DNA from: Candidatus Bathyarchaeota archaeon
GTDB lineage: Archaea > Thermoproteota > Bathyarchaeia > Bathyarchaeales > Bathyarchaeaceae
NCBI GenBank assembly: GCA_030615265.1
Contig: JAUWZP010000010.1
Coordinates: forward strand, 1-38,879
Direction: 5' to 3'
DNA length: 38,879 nucleotides
Shown here: positions 10,938 through 38,879 of the stretch, one piece after another
Numbering within the stretch: position 1 is the stretch's first letter
Layout of the letters: every line of letters begins with the position of its first letter
Translations under genes and position numbers: made by a program
The notes under the pieces: generated by a model
What the model saw: only the letters and a program-made list of their open reading frames with translations
Told to the model about the DNA's origin: nothing
The model's database searches: none

Positions 10938-12719
10938 TCAGAGAGTTTCTTCAAGCATGTCTATGAATTGCTCAGCTTGTTTCATGCCTTTCTCCCAAAA
11001 TGTCTCGTCAGTGATGTCGAGGCCTACTTCGCTGGCAAGTTCACGAGGAGACTTGCTTGAACCTGCTGCCAAGAGTCTCTTCAGCTTGGGAGCAAAGCTC
11101 TCACCCTGTTCTTTGTAGAGTTTGTACAGAGCGAACACAAAGAGTTGGGCAAACACGTAGGGGTAATTGTAGAAGCGATAGTTTGCAATATAATAATGTA
11201 GTTTCATTGTCCACTCCCATTTCATCACGTCCAGCCAATCGACGGCGCTACCGTAGATCTTGTCTCGCGCCGTCACCCATAATTTGGCAACAGTCTTTCC
11301 ATCTAGGAATTCGCCTCGTTTTATGGTGTCATACATGCTTTGCTCAAAGAAAACCCGTGCAGAAACTTGAAACGCTGCCATGCCGAACTCGTCCAGTATG
11401 TTGGCGAGGATTGCCTGTTTCTCTCCCTTTGTCTTGGCTTTGCTGAGCAACAGTTCGGTGAGGAGTAGCTCGCCGAAGATGCTTCCTGTTTCCGCAATAC
11501 AGCTGCCTATCTCCAGGTTGCTTGGTTTCTGTGCTCTTGAACCAAGATACGCATGTACAGCGTGGCCAAACTCGTGAGCTTGAGTGTAGACATCACCCAT
11601 CTTGCCGTTGAAACTCTGAAGGATGTAAGCGCTTTTTCCAGCGGTCCACCCAGCACAGAAGGCTCCTGAGGTTTTGCCTTTCCGAATTTCACCGTCGATG
11701 TGTCGCTTTTCAAACATCTCGTCAACCCAGCCGCCTATCTCCTTATTGAATCCTGTGTATGCGCTGACTACTTCTTTCTGAGCGTCTCTCCAAGTGTAGT
11801 CCATCTTGGGCGCGTTTGTCAATGGAGCGACCACATCGTAGTTTGCCAACTTGTCCAAACCCATAAGCTTGGCTTTCAGCTTTAAGTAGCGCTGATATAA
11901 GTTCACATTCTTCTTAATGGTGTTCATGAGGCTGTTAATGGTCTGTTGGTCAACGTCATTGGCGATCAAACTTTGGGTCATTGCAGTTGGATACTTCCTC
12001 AGTTCAGAAGTCTGCAGATGGTCTTCGCATACTGCGCGGATGGCGCTTGCCCAGATGATCTCATCCTTCCAAAGTTTTTCATAGACTATCTGATTGGCTC
12101 GTTTCCGCAGGTCCCGATCTGGACTCTGATACAGGCCAACTATCTCGCCGTAGGGAAGCGTCTTTGTCTTTCCCTCGATCTCTATGTCAAAGGTTCTGGT
12201 AGACAGCCAGTCACTTTGAAGCATCTCCCAAGCATCAACTCCATTCTTGTCCTTGGTGATTATCAGGCGCTCCTCGGCCTCTGATAGCATGTGGGGCACT
12301 CTCCTCAATATTCTCTCAAGAAAGTGCTTGTACTCCGCTAGTACTAGATCCGTGACTAACGATGGTTTTTCAGCAAGGAGCTTGCCCAACTCGATGTCTA
12401 TGAAGGCTAGTGTTTGGCCAACCTTCATGTATGCCCTGCGTGCAGCATTGTTGAGCTGTTTGGCCACATCATCAGTCGAATTTGCGTAGTACATTAGACG
12501 GCAGTACATGTTGACACCCTCAAACTTGAGCGCATAAGCGTCTTTTGTTTCCAAAAGTTCCAGTAGACCTTTCACATCGAGGCTGGCAATCTTGCCGTGA
12601 TACTTCTCTCTAGTTTTTTCTGCTTCAGCCATCATTGACTCCAGTTTCTTTTGAATTGAGGCGGGATCATTGCTCTTAACAAGTTGCGAGAGATCCCAAA
12701 TCATCTCATCCTTAGTCAT
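10938..12719 (-). CDS. pepF: M3-family oligoendopeptidase F (PepF)
   Basis: The 593-aa protein is a zinc metallopeptidase of family M3. The catalytic HEFGHAVH motif is at about 382-389, and the third metal ligand lies in SCIAETGSIFGE (about 407-418). The C-terminal FEQSMYDTIKRGEFLDGK and PYVFAQLFVFALYKLY blocks are typical of PepF. These enzymes cleave oligopeptides of roughly 7-17 residues in the cytosol. No signal peptide is present. The ATG at 12719 has no strong ribosome site; a near-leaderless transcript is likely. Confidence 0.93.
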   Translation of the reverse strand: MTKDEMIWDLSQLVKSNDPASIQKKLESMMAEAEKTREKYHGKIASLDVKGLLELLETKDAYALKFEGVNMYCRLMYYANSTDDVAKQLNNAARRAYMKVGQTLAFIDIELGKLLAEKPSLVTDLVLAEYKHFLERILRRVPHMLSEAEERLIITKDKNGVDAWEMLQSDWLSTRTFDIEIEGKTKTLPYGEIVGLYQSPDRDLRKRANQIVYEKLWKDEIIWASAIRAVCEDHLQTSELRKYPTAMTQSLIANDVDQQTINSLMNTIKKNVNLYQRYLKLKAKLMGLDKLANYDVVAPLTNAPKMDYTWRDAQKEVVSAYTGFNKEIGGWVDEMFEKRHIDGEIRKGKTSGAFCAGWTAGKSAYILQSFNGKMGDVYTQAHEFGHAVHAYLGSRAQKPSNLEIGSCIAETGSIFGELLLTELLLSKAKTKGEKQAILANILDEFGMAAFQVSARVFFEQSMYDTIKRGEFLDGKTVAKLWVTARDKIYGSAVDWLDVMKWEWTMKLHYYIANYRFYNYPYVFAQLFVFALYKLYKEQGESFAPKLKRLLAAGSSKSPRELASEVGLDITDETFWEKGMKQAEQFIDMLEETL

Positions 12720-16247: not shown

Positions 16248-16332
16248 GCGGGGGTTGCCAAGCCAGGTTAAAGGCGCAGCCCTGAGGCGGCTGTCCCGTA
16301 GGGGTTCGTGGGTTCGAATCCCACCCCCCGCA
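16248..16332 (+). tRNA. tRNA-Leu(GAG)
   Basis: An 85-base class II tRNA. The acceptor stem GCGGGGG pairs with CCCCCGC before discriminator A. The anticodon arm is CAGCC-CTGAGGC-GGCTG with anticodon GAG, which reads CUC/CUU leucine codons. A long variable arm (TCCCGTAGGGG) and a T arm GTGGG-TTCGAAT-CCCAC follow. No CCA is encoded and no intron is seen. Its 3' end is 33 bases from the stop of an integrase remnant, so it is a likely old integration target. Confidence 0.95.
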
Positions 16333-16364
16333 CTATTGGACGAACCCCCCACACTTTTTGGGCT

Positions 16365-16820
16365 CTATTTGCGCTTTCTAAAGATCTTGATCCTATCCAT
16401 TTCACAGACGTATTCAAAGCCAGCCTCAACCAGTTCGCAGGCTTCTTTAACTGTTTTTGCTACCTTTGAGACGTAATCGTCGTCCTGTAGGTCTACGAGC
16501 TGCGTGTAGATTAAGGTGTTCTTGATGTTCTTGTGTCCGAGGATTTGCATTACGTGAAGTATGTCTTTCGTTTTGTGGTATTCCATTGTGGCTTTGAAAT
16601 GTCTGAAGGTGTGAAAGCTTATCCTCATTATTCTAGAGCTCTGGAGCTTTCTTGCGATTTTTCGGCGTTGTTTGCAGAAGAGCCTTGCTTGGCTTTTAAG
16701 CGATTTTCCGAATATTCTGTCTGATTGTGATTTTCCTTGTCTGACAGTGAGCATCGCCATCAACTTGTTGGAAATCTTGAGGATTCTAGAGTTGCTCCCC
16801 TTTTCAAGCGTTTGGCTCAT
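16365..16820 (-). pseudogene. Tyrosine recombinase (integrase) C-terminal remnant
   Basis: The 151-codon frame carries only the C-terminal catalytic half of an archaeal integrase: HTFRHFKATMEYHKTKDIL (HxxR box, about 70-88), LGHKNIKNTLIYTQL (GH box and nucleophile Tyr, about 94-108), and a family tail ending FRKRK. The first catalytic Arg and the N-terminal core-binding domain are missing, so it is inactive or part of a split gene. It ends 33 bases from the tRNA-Leu 3' end, as expected for a tRNA-targeting integrase. A related remnant lies at 20134-20379 in the opposite direction. Confidence 0.8.
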
Positions 16821-17042
16821 TTTGATAATGTTCTTGATTTTAATAACGTGCGCGTAGCAGAATGGGAGGCAACATTCGCATCATCAAAGAAGAACTTCTA
16901 GTATTTGGCTTTTTACTGGTACAATGGAGACATCACCTGCTTACCCCTGCACATTCCCTTTTTTTATATTCATATCCTGGTTCCTAGCTCTCTGATAACA
17001 GTTAACGAATTGTAGTGTTTACTTCATCTTGCTTGATTCATT

Positions 17043-17592: not shown

Positions 17593-17617
17593 AATAATTT
17601 AAGAAGAAATGTTCTAG
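17593..17617 (+). repeat. 25-bp direct repeat, copy 1 (AATAATTTAAG box)
   Basis: It begins AATAATTTAAGAAGAAA and ends GTTCTAG, and matches 23 of 25 bases with the stretch at 18007-18031. The AATAATTTAA core also occurs at 17575-17584 and 17730-17739. Copies at 17730 and 18007 lie about 35-47 bases before start codons, so the core probably works as a TATA box. Confidence 0.5.
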
Positions 17618-17774
17618 AGAGTGTTATGCTTGCATCCAGTTCATAATATTCCATGCATGCAGCATTAGGTTTATTGGGTTTTAACAGTTATTCCTTAACA
17701 GTTACTTCACATTCTTTTCAAGTTGCATTAATAATTTAAGGCACACACACATTTCTGTGGTGGAGGAGAACCCA

Positions 17775-17984: not shown

Positions 17985-18006
17985 CAAAGAACCTATGTGT
18001 ATGCTT

Positions 18007-18031
18007 AATAATTTAAGGAGAAAAGTTCTAG
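18007..18031 (+). promoter_or_regulatory. 25-bp direct repeat, copy 2, promoter-like
   Basis: It begins AATAATTTAAGGAGAAA and ends GTTCTAG, nearly identical to 17593-17617. It lies about 23-47 bases before the TTG start at 18054, so the ATTTAA core is well placed as a TATA box for that small gene. Confidence 0.5.
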
Positions 18032-18053
18032 GAATACGCAAGGTGATGTTGAG

Positions 18054-18218
18054 TTGAAAGAATGGAAATGTGTGCAACTTGGGCACCATAAGAACGTCGG
18101 TGAAACAATTGAGGAATGGCAAAAGAATGGCTGGCATCTCCACACCTATGTTTGTGCTGGAAACGCCAACATGGGAATGGGAACCGTTCACTACTTGCTG
18201 TTTGAAAAGGGCGAGTGA
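18054..18218 (+). CDS. DUF4177-like small protein (54 aa)
   Basis: This short frame begins at TTG 18054, six bases after AGGTGAT (18041-18047), and ends at TGA 18218. The translation starts LKEWKCVQLG, continues ETIEEWQKNGWHLHTY and ends VHYLLFEKGE. That is the DUF4177 plan of a strand, a helix with a GW motif, and a final YLLF strand. DUF4177 proteins are small alpha/beta proteins of unknown function. An AATAATTTAAG promoter box lies upstream and a T-rich terminator follows. It is short enough to be missed by length-filtered gene finding. Confidence 0.7.
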   Translation: MKEWKCVQLGHHKNVGETIEEWQKNGWHLHTYVCAGNANMGMGTVHYLLFEKGE

Positions 18219-18235
18219 GTGGGACACGCCGATTC

Positions 18236-18256
18236 TTAACTTTCCCTTTTTTTTAT
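18236..18256 (+). terminator. T-run terminator after the DUF4177-like gene
   Basis: CTTAACTTTCCC followed by an uninterrupted run of eight T residues lies 18-36 bases after the stop codon at 18218. This matches archaeal T-rich intrinsic termination. Confidence 0.55.
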
Positions 18257-18523: not shown

Positions 18524-18712
18524 TGTTCGCTCCTCTTCCTATATGTCTAGTTTGCCTTCAGAAATAAAGCATTATGAACAAGCGATACAGTTTCAGAGTG
18601 TGTGCATTCTCGCACATTTGTTTCATTCCTCTGTATTTTTCAAACACTAAAATGGCAAACGTTTGAATCATTAGAGACAATGTTTTGATGTGTCTGGAAA
18701 GTTTTTGCATGC
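18524..18712. other. Intergenic region left of hairpin element copy A
   Basis: No gene is visible. The segment is AT-rich with scattered stops; similarity to the right-hand copy of the hairpin element fades out near 18713, which sets the approximate left boundary of the repeat. Confidence 0.4.
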
Positions 18713-18740
18713 ATACAGTCCACGAAAAAACTGACGTGGG

Positions 18741-18748
18741 ATATATAT
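18741..18748 (+). promoter_or_regulatory. TATA-like box of hairpin element copy A
   Basis: ATATATAT, in the conserved context ATATCAAAAATGCAAAATCG, lies about 50 bases before the hairpin. The same context appears in inverted orientation in copy B (AATATGTATC on the minus strand at 38534-38543). A transcript would begin near 18770. Confidence 0.4.
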
Positions 18749-18769
18749 CAAAAATGCAAAATCGTTTTA

Positions 18770-18890
18770 TGTCAGATTACGTTGACAACAAAGCATGGGA
18801 TTCGTAGCAGAACAACTGCGTGAGAGACTTATGTCTCCATTGTCAGTTTTCAATATTCTGCTACGAGTCCTATACCTACTTACGTTTGCG
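18770..18890 (+). ncRNA. Candidate structured RNA / hairpin element, copy A
   Basis: Bases 18798-18870 form one long nested hairpin. The outer stem pairs GGATTCGTAGCAGAA (18798-18812) with TTCTGCTACGAGTCC (18856-18870), 15 pairs with one T-G. The middle stem pairs AACTG (18814-18818) with CAGTT (18844-18848). The inner stem GAGAC/GTCTC (18824-18828, 18833-18837) closes a TTAT loop. A second copy lies inverted near 38.4-38.5 kb, roughly four fifths identical over the hairpin, and the similarity extends through a TATA-like upstream region. The strand is inferred from G-U pairs that become C-A mismatches on the other strand. It runs convergently into the HTH gene ending at 18963. No known RNA family is recognised; a MITE-like element is the alternative. 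Confidence 0.5.
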
Positions 18891-18962
18891 GTCCTTCTCC
18901 GTTAACTGCCATATCGCCTCTATTACGAAATGACCTAGACGCTTCAACTTCTCAAACATAGT

Positions 18963-19673
18963 TTACCACCAGCTTCTCGACGTCTGAACAATGTTAAAAC
19001 CGCCAATATCTGCTGTGAATTCTCGTCCTTCATAGCAACCTTTGACGTGGACCCTCACTTTGTACGGATAAGCCAGGGTTTGACGTCCTTTAGGAATGAA
19101 AGTGACTTTAGGGATGCCATATGGATCCAGTTGAGTCAAGTCGAGAAAGATTATTTGATAGTGTCTTTTGTATTCACGTGTTTTGAAACGCTCATGTTGT
19201 TCTATCATAGCGTCTGTTAAGATCTTGATTCGTTGCCACAGGGTTTTACCTTGTAGCTTGAAATTCATTTCTTTAATTCTTTCTTGCTCTAATCTGCTAA
19301 AGTAAGCGCGACTCATACGGAAATAGTAAGGCTTGATCTTGTTCATGTCACGGATAACGGTTCTCCGGCTTATACCTAGCATCTCAGCTATTTCAGATTC
19401 CTTGTATTTCCCAGAGAGCAACCAGCAAAGTTTTCTTCGTAGCCTTTCCTTCTTGTATTGCTTGATTGACTTGTAATATTTTTTTATGCGTCTGTAAGTT
19501 GCTTTTCTGCGTGTTTTCAGCTTCCTTTCAGGCGTTTTTGTGTCCGAAACGCCACTGAACTGTGTGTTATCTGCAGTTTGAAAACTTTGAAAATAGCCTA
19601 TTTTCCGCAAAGCGTCAACTAACTCGCTTATTTCCTTAGCGTGACCCCCATTCTCTAACATTAAAAGTGACAT
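18963..19673 (-). CDS. HTH-domain protein of a mobile element
   Basis: The 236-aa protein has a basic N-terminal half rich in Lys/Arg (KLKTRRKATYRRIKKYYKSI). It is followed by a helix-turn-helix of resolvase/sigma-like type, YKESEIAEMLGISRRTVIRDMNKI (about 91-114). The C-terminal domain (about 150-236) is beta-rich and not recognised. ATG 19673 gives the whole frame; a second ATG four codons on is possible. It looks like a DNA-binding regulator or replication-associated protein left by an integrated element. Its 3' end faces hairpin element copy A. Confidence 0.7.
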   Translation of the reverse strand: MSLLMLENGGHAKEISELVDALRKIGYFQSFQTADNTQFSGVSDTKTPERKLKTRRKATYRRIKKYYKSIKQYKKERLRRKLCWLLSGKYKESEIAEMLGISRRTVIRDMNKIKPYYFRMSRAYFSRLEQERIKEMNFKLQGKTLWQRIKILTDAMIEQHERFKTREYKRHYQIIFLDLTQLDPYGIPKVTFIPKGRQTLAYPYKVRVHVKGCYEGREFTADIGGFNIVQTSRSWW

Positions 19674-20013
19674 TTTTCATCATCAGCGTCTATGCTGTTT
19701 TCGAGGGTTTTTGCGGGTTGTGTCATACTTTTTGTCACCTGCCACAAATCTACGGAGAGGAGCCCTACATGCAGTCTGTACACCACTATGAGTGGTAAAC
19801 ACTTTCCATAATAAAGGTTTTCATCATAAGAATTGCGACGTGTGCGCCTGCGTATTTATCAAAACAAGAAAAGTAACACCTGATCTATTGACCAAAGTCT
19901 TCTCTTCAAGCGGTGTCTACCTATATTGGGTTAACGGTTCAATCTTGAAGTAGAGTTTCACGATGAATAAATGTGCCAACGCGCCTGTGTCTCAGACCTT
20001 TTGCTTGTCTTGT
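19674..20013. other. Gene-free stretch within the decayed integration zone
   Basis: No convincing gene is seen. It contains the promoter region of the minus-strand HTH gene and short open fragments only. Confidence 0.4.
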
Positions 20014-20133: not shown

Positions 20134-20379
20134 ATGCATGCAACTATGCTCTATCACCAAACGAAAGACATCTTGTACGTCAAGGAGTTTCTAGGCCACA
20201 GGAAAATCGAGACTACTCTAAAGTATGTTCAGCTTGAACAAGCATTATTCGACAAAGACGCTGACTCTTTCACTTGTAGAGTAGCAAAGACACCTGAAGT
20301 AATCAAGCAACTCATAGAGGCAGGCTTCGACTACGTAACTGAGAAAGACGACTTAATCTACTTTCGCAAGCGCAAGTAA
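20134..20379 (+). pseudogene. Tyrosine recombinase C-terminal remnant, second copy
   Basis: About 81 codons of an integrase C-terminus: ATMLYHQTKDILYVKEFLGH (about 3-22), the nucleophile Tyr in TTLKYVQLEQAL (about 27-38), and a tail ending DDLIYFRKRK. It is related to the remnant at 16365-16820 (shared YHxTKDIL, LGH, EAGF-YV, FRKRK) but lies in the opposite direction. The HxxR box and everything before it are missing, and the left edge coincides with the cut surface-protein tail. Confidence 0.75.
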
Positions 20380-20414: not shown

Positions 20415-22178
20415 CTAGTATCTGGCTTTTTTCCCGTATTGCCTTTCATAGATTTCCCTAACCCTCTGTATAGTGTCTGCTTCTTCTGGGCTTTTGTCTT
20501 CTCGTATTCTCTTTATACGGGCGAAGCGCAATGCCATCTCACATTCGTATTTTGGGCTTTTCTGTATCTCGTTATAGACTACTTCAACCACAACTTTTGG
20601 AGCAACTGTTACGCCGTGAGGCTGCTTCTTAATTGTTAACGCTTTTAGACGTTTAGTCATCTGGATAAATTCTCTGTCAGTTAGTCCCTTGAAGGTTTTG
20701 CCCACAACCAGAAATATTCCCGTTTCAGCGTCACGAGCGGCCAAGTAATAATTAGAAAGCCAGCTGTGTCTTCTTCCATAGCCCCACTCTGCGCCTACAA
20801 TAACAAGGTCAAGCGGCTCCAAAGTTTTCTTTATTTTGAACCAGCGTTTGCCCCGAATTCCAGGCGTGTATGCGCTGTCCAGCTTCTTCGCCATTAACCC
20901 TTCATGTCCAGCCTCTATAGCTTCTTCTAAAAACCGCTTCGCCTCTTTAGGGCTTCTCGTTATCAATTGCTCGGTCAATGGAATGTCGCCACAGACTTCA
21001 CTAAGCTTCTTTCTCCGTTCAACATATGGGAGCGCAATCAGGCTCTTCTCGTCTAAATATATAATGTCAAACAAATACAGTTCAATTGGGATCCGCCTCT
21101 GCATCTCCTCTATCTTGTGAACCCTTCGAAACCTACGCATAAGATGCTGAAAAAGCATAGGGCTTCGGTCTTCTCCCACAGCCACAACCTCACCCTCCAA
21201 AACCGCTTGTCTAGCTTGCACACGAGTTTTAGTCAACTCCACAATCTCCGGCAGGCTTTGTGTAACATCGGTCAATCGCCGACTGAAAATTCTAACTTCC
21301 TCATCATACTTGTGAATCTGAATGCGAGCCCCATCAAGCTTATATTCAAAAGCTGTTTCTCTACCATGCTCCCCCAACACCTCTTCAACGCTCTCGCTGC
21401 TCTGAGCCATCATAGGCCTAAACGGTCTGAAAACTTGAAGCTTAAGTTTCAAAACTCCATCCTTTCCATGCAACTTAGCCATTTTGGCAACTTCGACAAC
21501 GTCCCCACTTAACATGGCTGCCGTTTGAACAACATCAAGTGGAATGTTGAAGGCTTTTGAAACAGCAAGCTCCATTAGACCTTCGTAGAAGCCCGTTCTC
21601 ATCTCACCGATTACGATTTTCACGAGGAATTTTACTTCGAGAGCCGAAGCTTGACTGAACAACGTTTCAAGCAAGCGTTCTTTTCGTTCCCTCGAACCGT
21701 AACCTGAAATTTCAGCAATTGCTTCTAGGGCACGTCTAACCTCAAGAATAGTCAAGGGTTTTTCGAAAAGCGTGGCTTGCTTTCGCATTTTGCTTGATTC
21801 AAACAAGATTTTTGTGGCTGCTCCGATGTCGCCAGTCTTTGCAAAGGCTTCTCTAAAACGTGTCCACTTCACATTGGTTAAGCTTTTAATTACGTCACTT
21901 AAGGTCGCCCAGCTTATCTCAAGCACTCGTTGATCCCATTTTGGAAAGGCCCTTCCTAACATCATTGAAACCGTAGGCTCAACTTCATCTGCGTCTAATT
22001 GGTTCAGGAAATCTGCTGTTAGATCAACCATAACCAGCCGCTTGCTCGTAGCTTCTAATTTCTCGCAAAGCTCTGCAAACACTTGAAATCGAGTTTCCAT
22101 ATCCTTCCCTTTCAGAGACAGCCCTCTTTGCTCTTCTCCTATTGACTCAATCTTATCAAAGGACATAAACATTTTCAC
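20415..22178 (-). CDS. lig: ATP-dependent DNA ligase (archaeal LigI type)
   Basis: The 587-aa enzyme seals nicks during replication and repair. After an N-terminal DNA-binding domain, the adenylation domain starts with motif I EYKLDGARIQIHK (catalytic Lys about 276), then FSRRLTDVTQSLPEI, VLEGEVVAVGE (motif III, about 325-335) and GHEGLMAKKLDSAYTPG (motif IV). Motif V is RGKRWFKIKK, and the OB-fold domain holds ALRFARIKRIREDKSPEEADTI (motif VI, about 545-566). Length is typical for archaea. It starts at ATG 22178. It is a host gene bordering the decayed integration zone. Confidence 0.96.
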   Translation of the reverse strand: MKMFMSFDKIESIGEEQRGLSLKGKDMETRFQVFAELCEKLEATSKRLVMVDLTADFLNQLDADEVEPTVSMMLGRAFPKWDQRVLEISWATLSDVIKSLTNVKWTRFREAFAKTGDIGAATKILFESSKMRKQATLFEKPLTILEVRRALEAIAEISGYGSRERKERLLETLFSQASALEVKFLVKIVIGEMRTGFYEGLMELAVSKAFNIPLDVVQTAAMLSGDVVEVAKMAKLHGKDGVLKLKLQVFRPFRPMMAQSSESVEEVLGEHGRETAFEYKLDGARIQIHKYDEEVRIFSRRLTDVTQSLPEIVELTKTRVQARQAVLEGEVVAVGEDRSPMLFQHLMRRFRRVHKIEEMQRRIPIELYLFDIIYLDEKSLIALPYVERRKKLSEVCGDIPLTEQLITRSPKEAKRFLEEAIEAGHEGLMAKKLDSAYTPGIRGKRWFKIKKTLEPLDLVIVGAEWGYGRRHSWLSNYYLAARDAETGIFLVVGKTFKGLTDREFIQMTKRLKALTIKKQPHGVTVAPKVVVEVVYNEIQKSPKYECEMALRFARIKRIREDKSPEEADTIQRVREIYERQYGKKARY

Positions 22179-22604: not shown

Positions 22605-23816
22605 TCAGATTAATCCGAGTTTCTTGCCGCCTTCCCTCAACGCTTCGATAGCCTTGTCCAGCTGCTCTTCCGTATGCTTCGTACACAACTGGGTTCGAAT
22701 CCTCGCCTTGTCACGCGCTACCATAGGATAGACAATTGGAAGCGCAAAGATGCCTTTCTTCCAAATGAAATTGGCAAGATCCTTCGCTGTTTTGCTTTCA
22801 CCGCACATAACTGGCACAATTGGCGTTTCGCTGTTGCCCGTGTCAAAACCGAGGTCTTTCAGTGCTTTTATGAAGTACTCGCGGTTCTCCCAGACTTTTC
22901 TCACATGCTGGGGCTCAGATTCTAAGACATCGATTGCTGCAATGCAAGCGGCAGCCACCCCAGGAGGCACTGCTCCACTGAGCAGCCAAGTCCTAGATTT
23001 ATTGTAGGCGAAGTTTCGCAGGTCTTCGCCACCCGTGATGTGTCCACCTATAACTCCGAAAGCCTTAGAGAAAGTTCCCATTTCAACATGCACCTCTTCC
23101 CTGCTGAGGTTAAAGTGACTAACAATGCCACGCCCGCCTTCTCCGAGTACGCCTTCGCCGTGAGCATCGTCCACATATACGCCTGCGCCATGCTCCTTGG
23201 CGATTTTGGCAATTCCAGCTAGCGGAGCGAGGTCACCGTCCATACTGAAGACGCCGTCAGTGAGAATCCAAATGTGCTTATACGCAGGTTCATGTTTTTC
23301 CGCCTCATCCATAACACGTGCAAGGTCCTCCACATCCTTATGCTTGAAGATAGCGCGATCTGCATGACTCAGCCGCACACCGTCGATGATGGAGCCATGG
23401 TTCAACTCGTCGGAAACGTAGAGATCTCCTCTGCCGCAGAGTTGAGGAATAAGACCCTCATTAGCCATGAAACCTGTCTGATAAGTCAGCGAAGCAGGGG
23501 CCTGTTTAAACTTTGCAAGACGACGATCCAATTCTTCATGAACTGTCATGTTACCTGAAATTGAGCGGTCGCTGCCTGCGCCGGCACCGTATTTTCTTGT
23601 TTCTGCAATCATTGCTTCCACAAGTTTGGGGTGAGTTGACAAATTAAGATAGTTGTTGGCGCAGAGCATAATGACCTCTCTGCCGTCGACGGTGCAGACG
23701 GGTTCATTTGCGCCTTGGAGTTCTCTAAGCTCCCAGTTCAGGTTTTCACGGACTAAGCGCTGATACTCTTCGCCTAGATATCTTGTCGGATGCCTCTTAA
23801 TTGACATACTAATCAC
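22605..23816 (-). CDS. kbl: Glycine C-acetyltransferase (2-amino-3-ketobutyrate CoA ligase)
   Basis: The 403-aa PLP enzyme of the alpha-oxoamine synthase group cleaves 2-amino-3-ketobutyrate with CoA to glycine and acetyl-CoA. Motifs: CANNYLNLSTHPKLVEA (about 51-67), GAGAGSDRSISGNMTVHEELD (about 77-97), DELNHGSIIDGVRLS, VYVDDAHGEGVLGEGGRG (about 211-228) and the PLP-lysine segment GTFSKAFGVIGGHITG (Lys about 251). Length matches E. coli Kbl. It follows tdh by 53 bases, so the pair forms a threonine-to-glycine operon. Confidence 0.94.
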   Translation of the reverse strand: MISMSIKRHPTRYLGEEYQRLVRENLNWELRELQGANEPVCTVDGREVIMLCANNYLNLSTHPKLVEAMIAETRKYGAGAGSDRSISGNMTVHEELDRRLAKFKQAPASLTYQTGFMANEGLIPQLCGRGDLYVSDELNHGSIIDGVRLSHADRAIFKHKDVEDLARVMDEAEKHEPAYKHIWILTDGVFSMDGDLAPLAGIAKIAKEHGAGVYVDDAHGEGVLGEGGRGIVSHFNLSREEVHVEMGTFSKAFGVIGGHITGGEDLRNFAYNKSRTWLLSGAVPPGVAAACIAAIDVLESEPQHVRKVWENREYFIKALKDLGFDTGNSETPIVPVMCGESKTAKDLANFIWKKGIFALPIVYPMVARDKARIRTQLCTKHTEEQLDKAIEALREGGKKLGLI

Positions 23817-29826: not shown

Positions 29827-30948
29827 TCAAGTTTTCTCTTGTTTTTTGTCTAAGTCTGCCGGCTTCCATTCCTTTCCTTGACGCAACCTTTCTTGCATAG
29901 CATCATACTCTTTAAAGCACACCACCAGGAAATCTACTTTATCCTGCAGGGCTGCTATTTTCTCTTCGTATTCAGCTCTTAGCTTTTGAACGTCCTCTCT
30001 TACTTCTACCTTGTAGATCCTAAGGTTTTCATAGGCTTCTGCATATTCTTCTCGGTGTCTCTCAATGTCTCTACTGACATAATGCGTCTGTGTGGTTTTA
30101 TGTCCCAGCCAAAACTCTCTGAAGGCTGTATCGCACTTAATGTTGTTCATAAAGTATTTTCGCAAACAGTAAAGTCTGATATCTGCCGGTTTTCCCTTCT
30201 CGGTTCTCTCCGTGATTCCCAGCTTCATGGCAATAGTAGAAAACTTCTTTGTGAAGCTTGTGGGGCTTACAAACGCTAGTTTCTGATCGCTTCTTTCAGG
30301 AGCGAAAACAAGGTCTTCATCGCCTAATTTGCCGCGAGTGTCCAGGTATGACTCGAGTGCTTTTAATGCGTCTTCTCCTATGAATGTCCAACGGGCGCCT
30401 ACGCGATCCTTTAGCAGCTTGCTCGGAAGGTCTATGAGCATAGGCATTCTATGAGCCTCAAAATCCTTCTTAATGTGCTTGTATCGTAGTTGCACAAGTG
30501 TGTAGGGCCTTAATCCACTCTCAGCCATCATAAGAAAGAAGGCTCTGTCTCTGATAGAAGCACGTTCAACTATTCGCTGGATCTCTTCTTTCTTAATGTC
30601 TCTGTTATGGTAAGTGACATAGACATGCCTCTTCCGAGAAGGGTTCACATTGATACCATGATGCTTAAAGAAGCTCACGACTATCGTTAATTCTTGCATA
30701 AGAGTTGTTGGAACAAGACCTTCTAATCCGTAGACATAGGCCTCTATTTTCTTCGTCCATTGCCTTAGAAACCTTTTCTCGGCTCCATAAGTCTCTATGC
30801 TTTCAAATTCTGAAACTAGAGTGTCCGGGTTCACATTAGCAAACTTGAAGAAAGGTTTTATGCGGTTCTCATATTCTCTCCTTGTCGTTTCTGAGCCACA
30901 TGCTTTATTTAGCCAAAACACGACACTATTAACTTGAGTGTGTTTCAT
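29827..30948 (-). CDS. int: Tyrosine recombinase / integrase of the integrated element
   Basis: From ATG 30948 the protein is 373 aa. An N-terminal core-binding domain (about 1-130) is followed by the catalytic domain with Arg I in MAESGLRPYTLVQLRYKHI (about 161-179) and the CLRKYFMNN box in place of HxxR (about 263-271). The FWLGHKTTQTHYVSRDI segment (about 281-297) holds the His and the nucleophile Tyr. A C-terminal coiled coil (VREDVQKLRAEYEEKIAALQ) resembles archaeal viral integrases. ATG 30948 has GGAG nine bases upstream, and the TATA box GCATTTATATG overlaps the earlier ATG 30987, which rules that one out. It lies beside the putative attR. Confidence 0.9.
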   Translation of the reverse strand: MKHTQVNSVVFWLNKACGSETTRREYENRIKPFFKFANVNPDTLVSEFESIETYGAEKRFLRQWTKKIEAYVYGLEGLVPTTLMQELTIVVSFFKHHGINVNPSRKRHVYVTYHNRDIKKEEIQRIVERASIRDRAFFLMMAESGLRPYTLVQLRYKHIKKDFEAHRMPMLIDLPSKLLKDRVGARWTFIGEDALKALESYLDTRGKLGDEDLVFAPERSDQKLAFVSPTSFTKKFSTIAMKLGITERTEKGKPADIRLYCLRKYFMNNIKCDTAFREFWLGHKTTQTHYVSRDIERHREEYAEAYENLRIYKVEVREDVQKLRAEYEEKIAALQDKVDFLVVCFKEYDAMQERLRQGKEWKPADLDKKQEKT

Positions 30949-30984
30949 AGTGTTTGTCTCCAGACCTATGATACACGCTCCACA

Positions 30985-30996
30985 CATATAAATGCT
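30985..30996 (-). promoter_or_regulatory. TATA box of the integrase gene
   Basis: On the minus strand GCATTTATATGT lies about 40 bases before ATG 30948. It overlaps the earlier in-frame ATG (30987), so transcripts cannot include that ATG. Half-repeats AATGCTTGC and AATACTTGC (30991-31029) flank it and may be integrase or regulator sites. Confidence 0.45.
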
Positions 30997-38268: not shown

Positions 38269-38400
38269 AAAAGGCAAAGAAGCAACATTAAAACGCGGAC
38301 TAGGCACGTTCAGTTGAAGTTTTAACACGAGTTAGAGATATTAAAGCTACAGATAACTAGAGTGACTAATCCGTGAATGCTTAACTGATCTGGATCGTAA
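38269..38400. other. Gap between wHTH gene and hairpin element copy B
   Basis: No gene is visible. It ends where similarity to element copy A begins, near 38401. Confidence 0.35.
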
Positions 38401-38513
38401 ACGCGAGTAGGTAGAGGACTCGTAGCAGATTGAGTAAACCGACTAAGGAGACATGAGTCTCTCAAGCAGTTATTCTGCTACGAATCCCACATATTGTTGC
38501 TAGCATAATCTGA
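38401..38513 (-). ncRNA. Candidate structured RNA / hairpin element, copy B
   Basis: Inverted copy of the 18.8-kb element. On the minus strand GGATTCGTAGCAGA pairs with TCTGCTACGAGTCC (38416-38487 overall). The middle stem AACTG pairs with CGGTT (one T-G pair where copy A has T-A). The inner GAGAC-TCAT-GTCTC repeats the same nested form. A TATA-like AATATGTATC (38534-38543) lies upstream on that strand, and similarity to copy A continues to about 38568. It points into the 3' end of the wHTH gene ending at 38268, just as copy A points into an HTH gene. Confidence 0.5.
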
Positions 38514-38568
38514 TGAAACGATTTTGCATTTTTGATACATATTGCCTGTCAGTTTTTTTGGTGGACTA

Positions 38569-38879
38569 TGTGAAATTCCACGAAAAGGGTAAGTTTGTGG
38601 AATTTTCCTTAGAAAATGCGCGTAGATGTTACCCTAAGAAGGGTATGTGTGTTCCCTTCCTGTCACAAGGGGGAAGCACACGATTCGCGCTGTGCGCTTA
38701 ATTCTGATTCTTTCTGCAAAACAATATTAAACTTATGAAGCAAGAATCAACATTCATGCGCGCGCAATCTGCGAAGGAAATTGCTGATTTTGCCGGAGAA
38801 ATCCAAGGAGACTGAAAAACAGAAATCGTGGGGGTTTACTCGTAGTAGATTAGTTCTTCTTTTTCAAGTCTTTCATGAA
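38569..38879. other. Right edge of window, partial third repeat copy possible
   Basis: No protein gene is convincing here. The stretch TTTACTCGTAGTAGATTAG at about 38834-38852 resembles the first arm of element copy B (CTCGTAGCAGATT), suggesting another copy that continues beyond the window. Confidence 0.3.

Follow-up and report, generated by a model that had tools for sequence, protein, structure and literature searches.

A single genome can carry small regulatory RNAs in several near-identical copies. Prokaryotic MITEs and REP-like repeats, which are known in several archaea, are shorter than 500 bp, AT-rich, intergenic and dispersed, and the production of small RNAs by MITEs has been raised as a possibility (PMC10969869). 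Integron attC sites are also known in archaea (PMC9668308). In this work, we analyzed a window of 38,879 nucleotides from a Candidatus Bathyarchaeota archaeon (contig JAUWZP010000010.1), which carries a hairpin element in two inverted copies, A and B (Table 1); two further copies, C and D, lie elsewhere in the same genome.

Like multicopy small regulatory RNAs, the element has its own promoter-like region, a strong stem-loop, several diverged copies and unrelated flanks, but it differs from them in lacking a clear terminator, in being restricted to one sampled genome and in that its transcript is predicted. With MITEs and REP-like repeats it shares a size below 500 bp, AT-richness and an intergenic, dispersed location, and its transcript would form a stable stem-loop (PMC10969869); in contrast to them, neither terminal inverted repeats (TIRs) nor target duplications were found in it, its best-kept part is internal and contains a promoter-like box, and there are only four copies, all full length. 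As in integron attC sites, a gene has an imperfect hairpin at its 3' end at loci A and C, whereas no complementary R-box pair, cassette array or integron integrase was seen and the hairpin sequence is nearly invariant. The element family is new, but its kind, a dispersed hairpin or candidate small RNA confined to one lineage, is a familiar one; it probably represents a small RNA gene or a hairpin repeat, in either case young and lineage-specific.

Copies and distribution of the element

Copies A and B are 80.2% identical over 192 nt (18717-18905 versus 38567-38381, E=6e-41), which bears out the four fifths estimated by hand in the initial annotation, and the pair was also recovered as three ungapped inverted blocks with 82-87% complementarity. 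The homology proved somewhat longer than first described, as the upstream box common to B and D reaches 38599. This box, CACAAACTTACYCTTTTYGTG, is kept in B and D, partial in C and mostly lost from A. The source genome (1.86 Mb in 119 contigs, about 96% complete) contains exactly four copies by sequence search and the same four by covariance model, contig C44 carrying C (96% identity to A) and contig C7 carrying D (77% identity). All of them are intergenic and approximately full length (about 200 bp), none is truncated, and a common core is embedded in unrelated flanks. Between A and C the homology extends past the end of copy A, to 18959, and on the side of the upstream box it ends 0-4 nt from a TGCATGCA palindrome. 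As previously noted for A and B, no protein is consistently encoded: no reading frame, in any frame, is common to or conserved among the four copies.

Table 1 Features of the hairpin element and of locus A (window coordinates)
Feature	Position	Strand	Remark
Hairpin element copy A (promoter-like part, leader, hairpin, tail)	18713..18905	+	homologous to C up to 18959
TATA-like box GATATATATC, copy A	18740..18749	+	invariant at 8/10 positions in four copies
Hairpin of copy A, 75 nt	18797..18871	+	
Outer helix of copy A, 15 pairs	18797-18811/18857-18871	+	
Inner helices of copy A with tetraloop	18814-18828/18833-18848	+	
Spacer, hairpin A to facing HTH stop codon	18906..18962	.	within block 95% identical to C
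HTH_11-type DNA-binding protein gene, 236 aa, convergent on hairpin A	18963..19673	-	
5' leader of HTH gene	19669..19740	-	94.4% identical over 72 nt to C-locus HTH leader
Palindrome TTTACCACTCATAGTGGTGTA upstream of HTH gene, probable operator	19779..19799	-	
Hairpin element copy B, including upstream box common to D (38577-38599)	38381..38599	-	
Hairpin of copy B, 74 nt	38415..38488	-	
TATA-like box AATATGTATC, copy B	38534..38543	-	

Outside this genome, no copy was detected by BLAST in 100 relatives or by the covariance model in 200 relatives, 257 genomes of the class and the 27-genome family (own genome included), and none was found in viral contigs, plasmids or phages; absence from the genus is not firm, since both same-genus genomes are only 64-71% complete. 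The initial annotation had made its proposal depend on further copies in related genomes and on preserved stems. The outcome is split: two more copies, with their stems preserved, are present in the same genome, and none appeared in any relative by either method. The one weak covariance-model match in genome G015 (E 0.34) was discarded as it lies inside a membrane-protein gene and has a different fold, and the exact stem pattern retrieved from the GTDB genome collection only two chance palindromes in unrelated bacteria. Rfam 15 holds no match to the element at or above the gathering score, in agreement with the earlier remark that no described RNA family has this form; the best sub-threshold matches are miRNA models (E 0.2-1.1), and the only Rfam match within the window is a tRNA-Leu.

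A lineage-specific dispersed repeat whose copies come from one genome only is also the expected product of a mobile element. The copies could accordingly represent a non-autonomous, MITE-like or REP-like mobile hairpin, spread in trans by a transposase or recombinase and keeping its stem as a DNA recognition site, a reading that we consider rather unlikely though the most serious of the alternatives. The criteria of a short, dispersed, multicopy, intergenic and stem-loop-forming sequence do describe the four copies of about 200 bp with their strong hairpin and unrelated flanks. Furthermore, the genome is rich in other short dispersed repeats; the earlier statement that no other noncoding repeat of this scale exists in the window stands for that length, but shorter ones are present (17584-17617/17995-18031, and TGCATGCA). 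The stretch from the tRNA-Leu (16248-16333) to a DNA ligase gene (20415-22178), which includes copy A, is island-like; here, copy A is flanked by two C-terminal integrase fragments (16365-16820 and 20134-20379) that represent decayed tyrosine integrase genes, and a full tyrosine integrase gene is found at 29827-30987; the recombinases nearby are fragments or XerA_Arch matches far below the model cut-off. As a candidate att duplicate of the tRNA-Leu near copy A, only a 13-mer at 22690 with typical T-loop sequence was found, and it was rejected.

On the other side, end-to-end alignment against shuffles gave no evidence of TIRs of about 4-30 bp (p 0.36-0.97), although very short ones could escape as the ends were set by loss of homology, and no target-site duplication of at least 6 nt was found at the copies, only two chance-level 5-mers, with the caveat that old copies may have lost theirs. 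Besides, no autonomous element with matching ends was found, and four copies, all about full length, are few for such an element. If it is nevertheless mobile, the element would join, as one more MITE-like repeat, the many short repeats already dispersed over this genome.

Uneven conservation of the hairpin and the promoter-like part

The nested hairpin that had been described under each copy is borne out in A and B: 15 pairs form its outer helix, the inner helices end in a TTAT/TCAT tetraloop, and its folding z-scores against shuffles are -5.4 (A) and -3.3 (B). In A, B and C, the named strand gives a better fold than the complementary one, both strands being equal in D. Across the four copies, 97.4% of the pair cells stay paired, versus 36-43% with slid partners. 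Six pairs are changed, three of which keep pairing and three of which break, two of the latter in the weak middle helix; the three pair-keeping changes are one-sided and G-U compatible on the named strand only (U-G/U-A, C-G/U-G and U-A/U-G). A check for covariation, suggested at the outset, gave no compensatory double change in any pair of the four copies, whose stems are kept. This may be explained by the four copies being too alike, and it means that the conservation may be of sequence rather than of structure. The four-copy data thus support a constraint on the hairpin, short of proof of RNA structure by covariation.

Invariant columns are concentrated in two parts of the element. They make up 52/58 of the hairpin-paired columns versus 28/67 of the other transcribed ones (Fisher p=1e-8); inside the hairpin alone the figures are 52/58 paired versus 8/17 unpaired (p=0.0005), and the promoter-like part (38/57) exceeds the leader plus tail (20/50, p=0.007). 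Conservation is therefore maximal in the hairpin and in the promoter-like part and not at the element ends, which argues against a MITE, since a mobile copy in neutral decay would change more evenly and the ends of a MITE would be its best-kept parts. The TATA-like box included in the original alignment was confirmed in both copies, about 45-50 nt before the hairpin in A and B.

Small RNA gene as the favored reading

We tentatively favor the interpretation that the four copies are a family of small noncoding RNA genes with their own promoter, to which we give a somewhat less than even chance, over that of a MITE-like mobile hairpin, which we regard as clearly less probable. The preference is based on the promoter-like part and the hairpin being the best-kept regions, on a spacing like that of archaeal transcription units and on the poor conservation of the linkers. 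Of the two readings initially put forward, a structured RNA or a MITE-like hairpin, the first is thus preferred, given the conservation of paired columns, the promoter-like part, the G-U changes and the lack of an Rfam match, and the second is left without TIRs. Both are not mutually exclusive because MITEs could produce small RNAs.

According to the small RNA gene reading, a conserved promoter formed by the TATA-like box and upstream boxes would start a transcript about 25 nt before the hairpin; in copy A the start would lie near 18766-18772, about 25 nt after the TATA-like box, and in copy B near 38513. The resulting RNA is predicted to be about 100-125 nt or longer, and its functional part would be the stable hairpin of 74-75 nt. 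As the paired bases are near-invariant and not swapped for other pairs, recognition by sequence plus shape, for example by a protein, seems most likely, and the RNA would work in trans, in a regulatory or protein-binding role. At A and C, where an HTH regulator gene faces the hairpin, the RNA would also run toward this gene, to whose 3' end it could be antisense. Promoter activity, transcript ends, action at the RNA level and the partner of the hairpin RNA are all points that we infer from sequence features. If transcribed, the element would constitute an undescribed RNA family with a strongly constrained hairpin sequence, in a group of archaea represented here by assembled genomes alone. An H/ACA guide RNA was also considered and rejected, as inspection showed no ACA box after the stem.

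Neighboring genes

No single gene partner accompanies all four copies. Copies A and C face HTH genes, copy B a winged-helix gene (HTH_45), and copy D lies in line behind a zinc-ribbon gene, a relative of which in genome G002 has no hairpin behind it, as would also be expected of a mobile hairpin. A multicopy small-gene region adjoins D (C7:5053-5680) and recurs at the ends of contigs C77, C112, C113 and C115, which makes this region a probable breakpoint of the assembly.

In every copy a stop codon is found within about 90-155 nt of the hairpin, the gene being convergent in A, B and C, and the A/C homology spans the interval between hairpin and stop codon. This arrangement is what would be seen if the hairpin were a 3'-end element of the neighboring genes, either a bidirectional terminator or an mRNA-stabilizing hairpin behind stop codons. 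We nevertheless judge such a role improbable: the neighbors of A/C, B and D are unrelated, no T-run terminator follows the hairpin, the better fold belongs to the strand opposite to the neighbor genes of A, B and C, and such a role would leave unexplained the conservation of the TATA-like box and of the upstream part, which lie beyond the hairpin as seen from these genes.

The most unusual point is the apparent coding-sequence-swap mosaic at A and C, in which near-identical outer parts enclose diverged regulator genes. A paralogue of the A-locus HTH gene faces hairpin C in the same position (C44:11446-12192). The DNA of A and C is 94.7% identical over 244 nt that start at the hairpin and come as close as 4 nt to the stop codon, and the leaders are similarly close (Table 1), whereas the HTH proteins share only 36% identity and their coding DNA about 59%. 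The A-locus protein is closer to that of genome G019 (65%) than to its C-locus paralogue, the G019 orthologue has no hairpin beside it and its leader is visibly more diverged. As the outer parts are about 95% identical and the coding sequences diverged, the former would have been exchanged or copied after the coding sequences had split. The mosaic would be a concrete case of regulator swapping. Antisense pairing between the hairpin RNA and the HTH leader was rejected, the complementarity being no better than in shuffles.

Such a mosaic could be produced by an attC-like DNA recombination site, with the hairpin (3' end of the HTH gene) and the leader (5' end) as anchors for the replacement of the coding sequence; both the near-identity on either side of the coding sequences and the affinity of the A-locus protein to G019 are in line with it. 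However, ordinary gene conversion between the flanks would account for it as well, an HTH gene of this kind is missing at B and D, and inspection revealed no attC R-box pairs, so that we regard this possibility as very unlikely. A genuine attC site, expected to show complementary RYYYAAC...GTTRRRY boxes where the hairpin has its base, was rejected since GTTAACT follows hairpin A with no RYYYAAC at the mirror position and D has neither motif; an integron cassette system was likewise discarded, the hairpins being single and 20 kb apart or on other contigs, with no integron integrase seen. More remote still, it is tempting to speculate that the hairpin RNA and the HTH regulators form an exchange unit, in which the near-identical outer parts let regulator coding sequences be swapped and, as part of the same highly doubtful proposal, a common hairpin RNA works with interchangeable DNA-binding proteins.

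A palindrome similar to the one upstream of the A-locus HTH gene precedes its homologues at C (C44:11418) and in genomes G019 and G149, and the palindrome TTTACCACTnnnAGTGGTGTA, found upstream of HTH homologues in different families of the order (L028 and L029), is a probable operator. No hairpin of the same kind was present beside other HTH-gene homologues in the loci that could be reliably read (L028, L029, L032, L035 and L036).

Other dispersed motifs in the window and the genome

This archaeal family shows a strong over-representation of the palindrome ATGCATGCAT, which is patchy between genera, with 104 occurrences in the source genome and 191 and 138 in two relatives versus 0-2 for the reversed control. 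This resembles the HIP1 phenomenon of cyanobacteria and may be a more general finding than the hairpin element. In the window, TGCATGCA was observed 7 times versus 0.6 expected, the palindrome sites being at 17654, 18706, 20135, 24929, 25111, 29627 and 29631. Sites of the TGCATGCA type occur at joints, namely the truncated start of the integrase fragment at 20134-20379 and the left edge of copies A (18706-18713) and C, and probably, as deduced from NHAC residues in the frame, the joint of a metallo-beta-lactamase/chaperonin hybrid frame (L005:5742-6233).

The motif TTAATAATTTAAGGAGAAAAGTTCTAG is dispersed in the window (17593-17617, 17728-17741 and 18005-18031), at some sites just ahead of small genes; genome-wide, 36 exact matches to its 14-base core were counted versus none for the reversed control, and the motif is also found in relatives. 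A second short dispersed motif, GTTTACTTCATCTTGCTTGAT, occurs at 17013-17042 of the window, at C44:22289-22323 and at C7:4287-4325 and 11484-11521. Finally, relatives of the DNA at 18040-18255, which surrounds a small reading frame (18054-18218, MKEWKCVQLGHHKNVGETIEEWQ...), are found in many family genomes, and several occur in the source genome.
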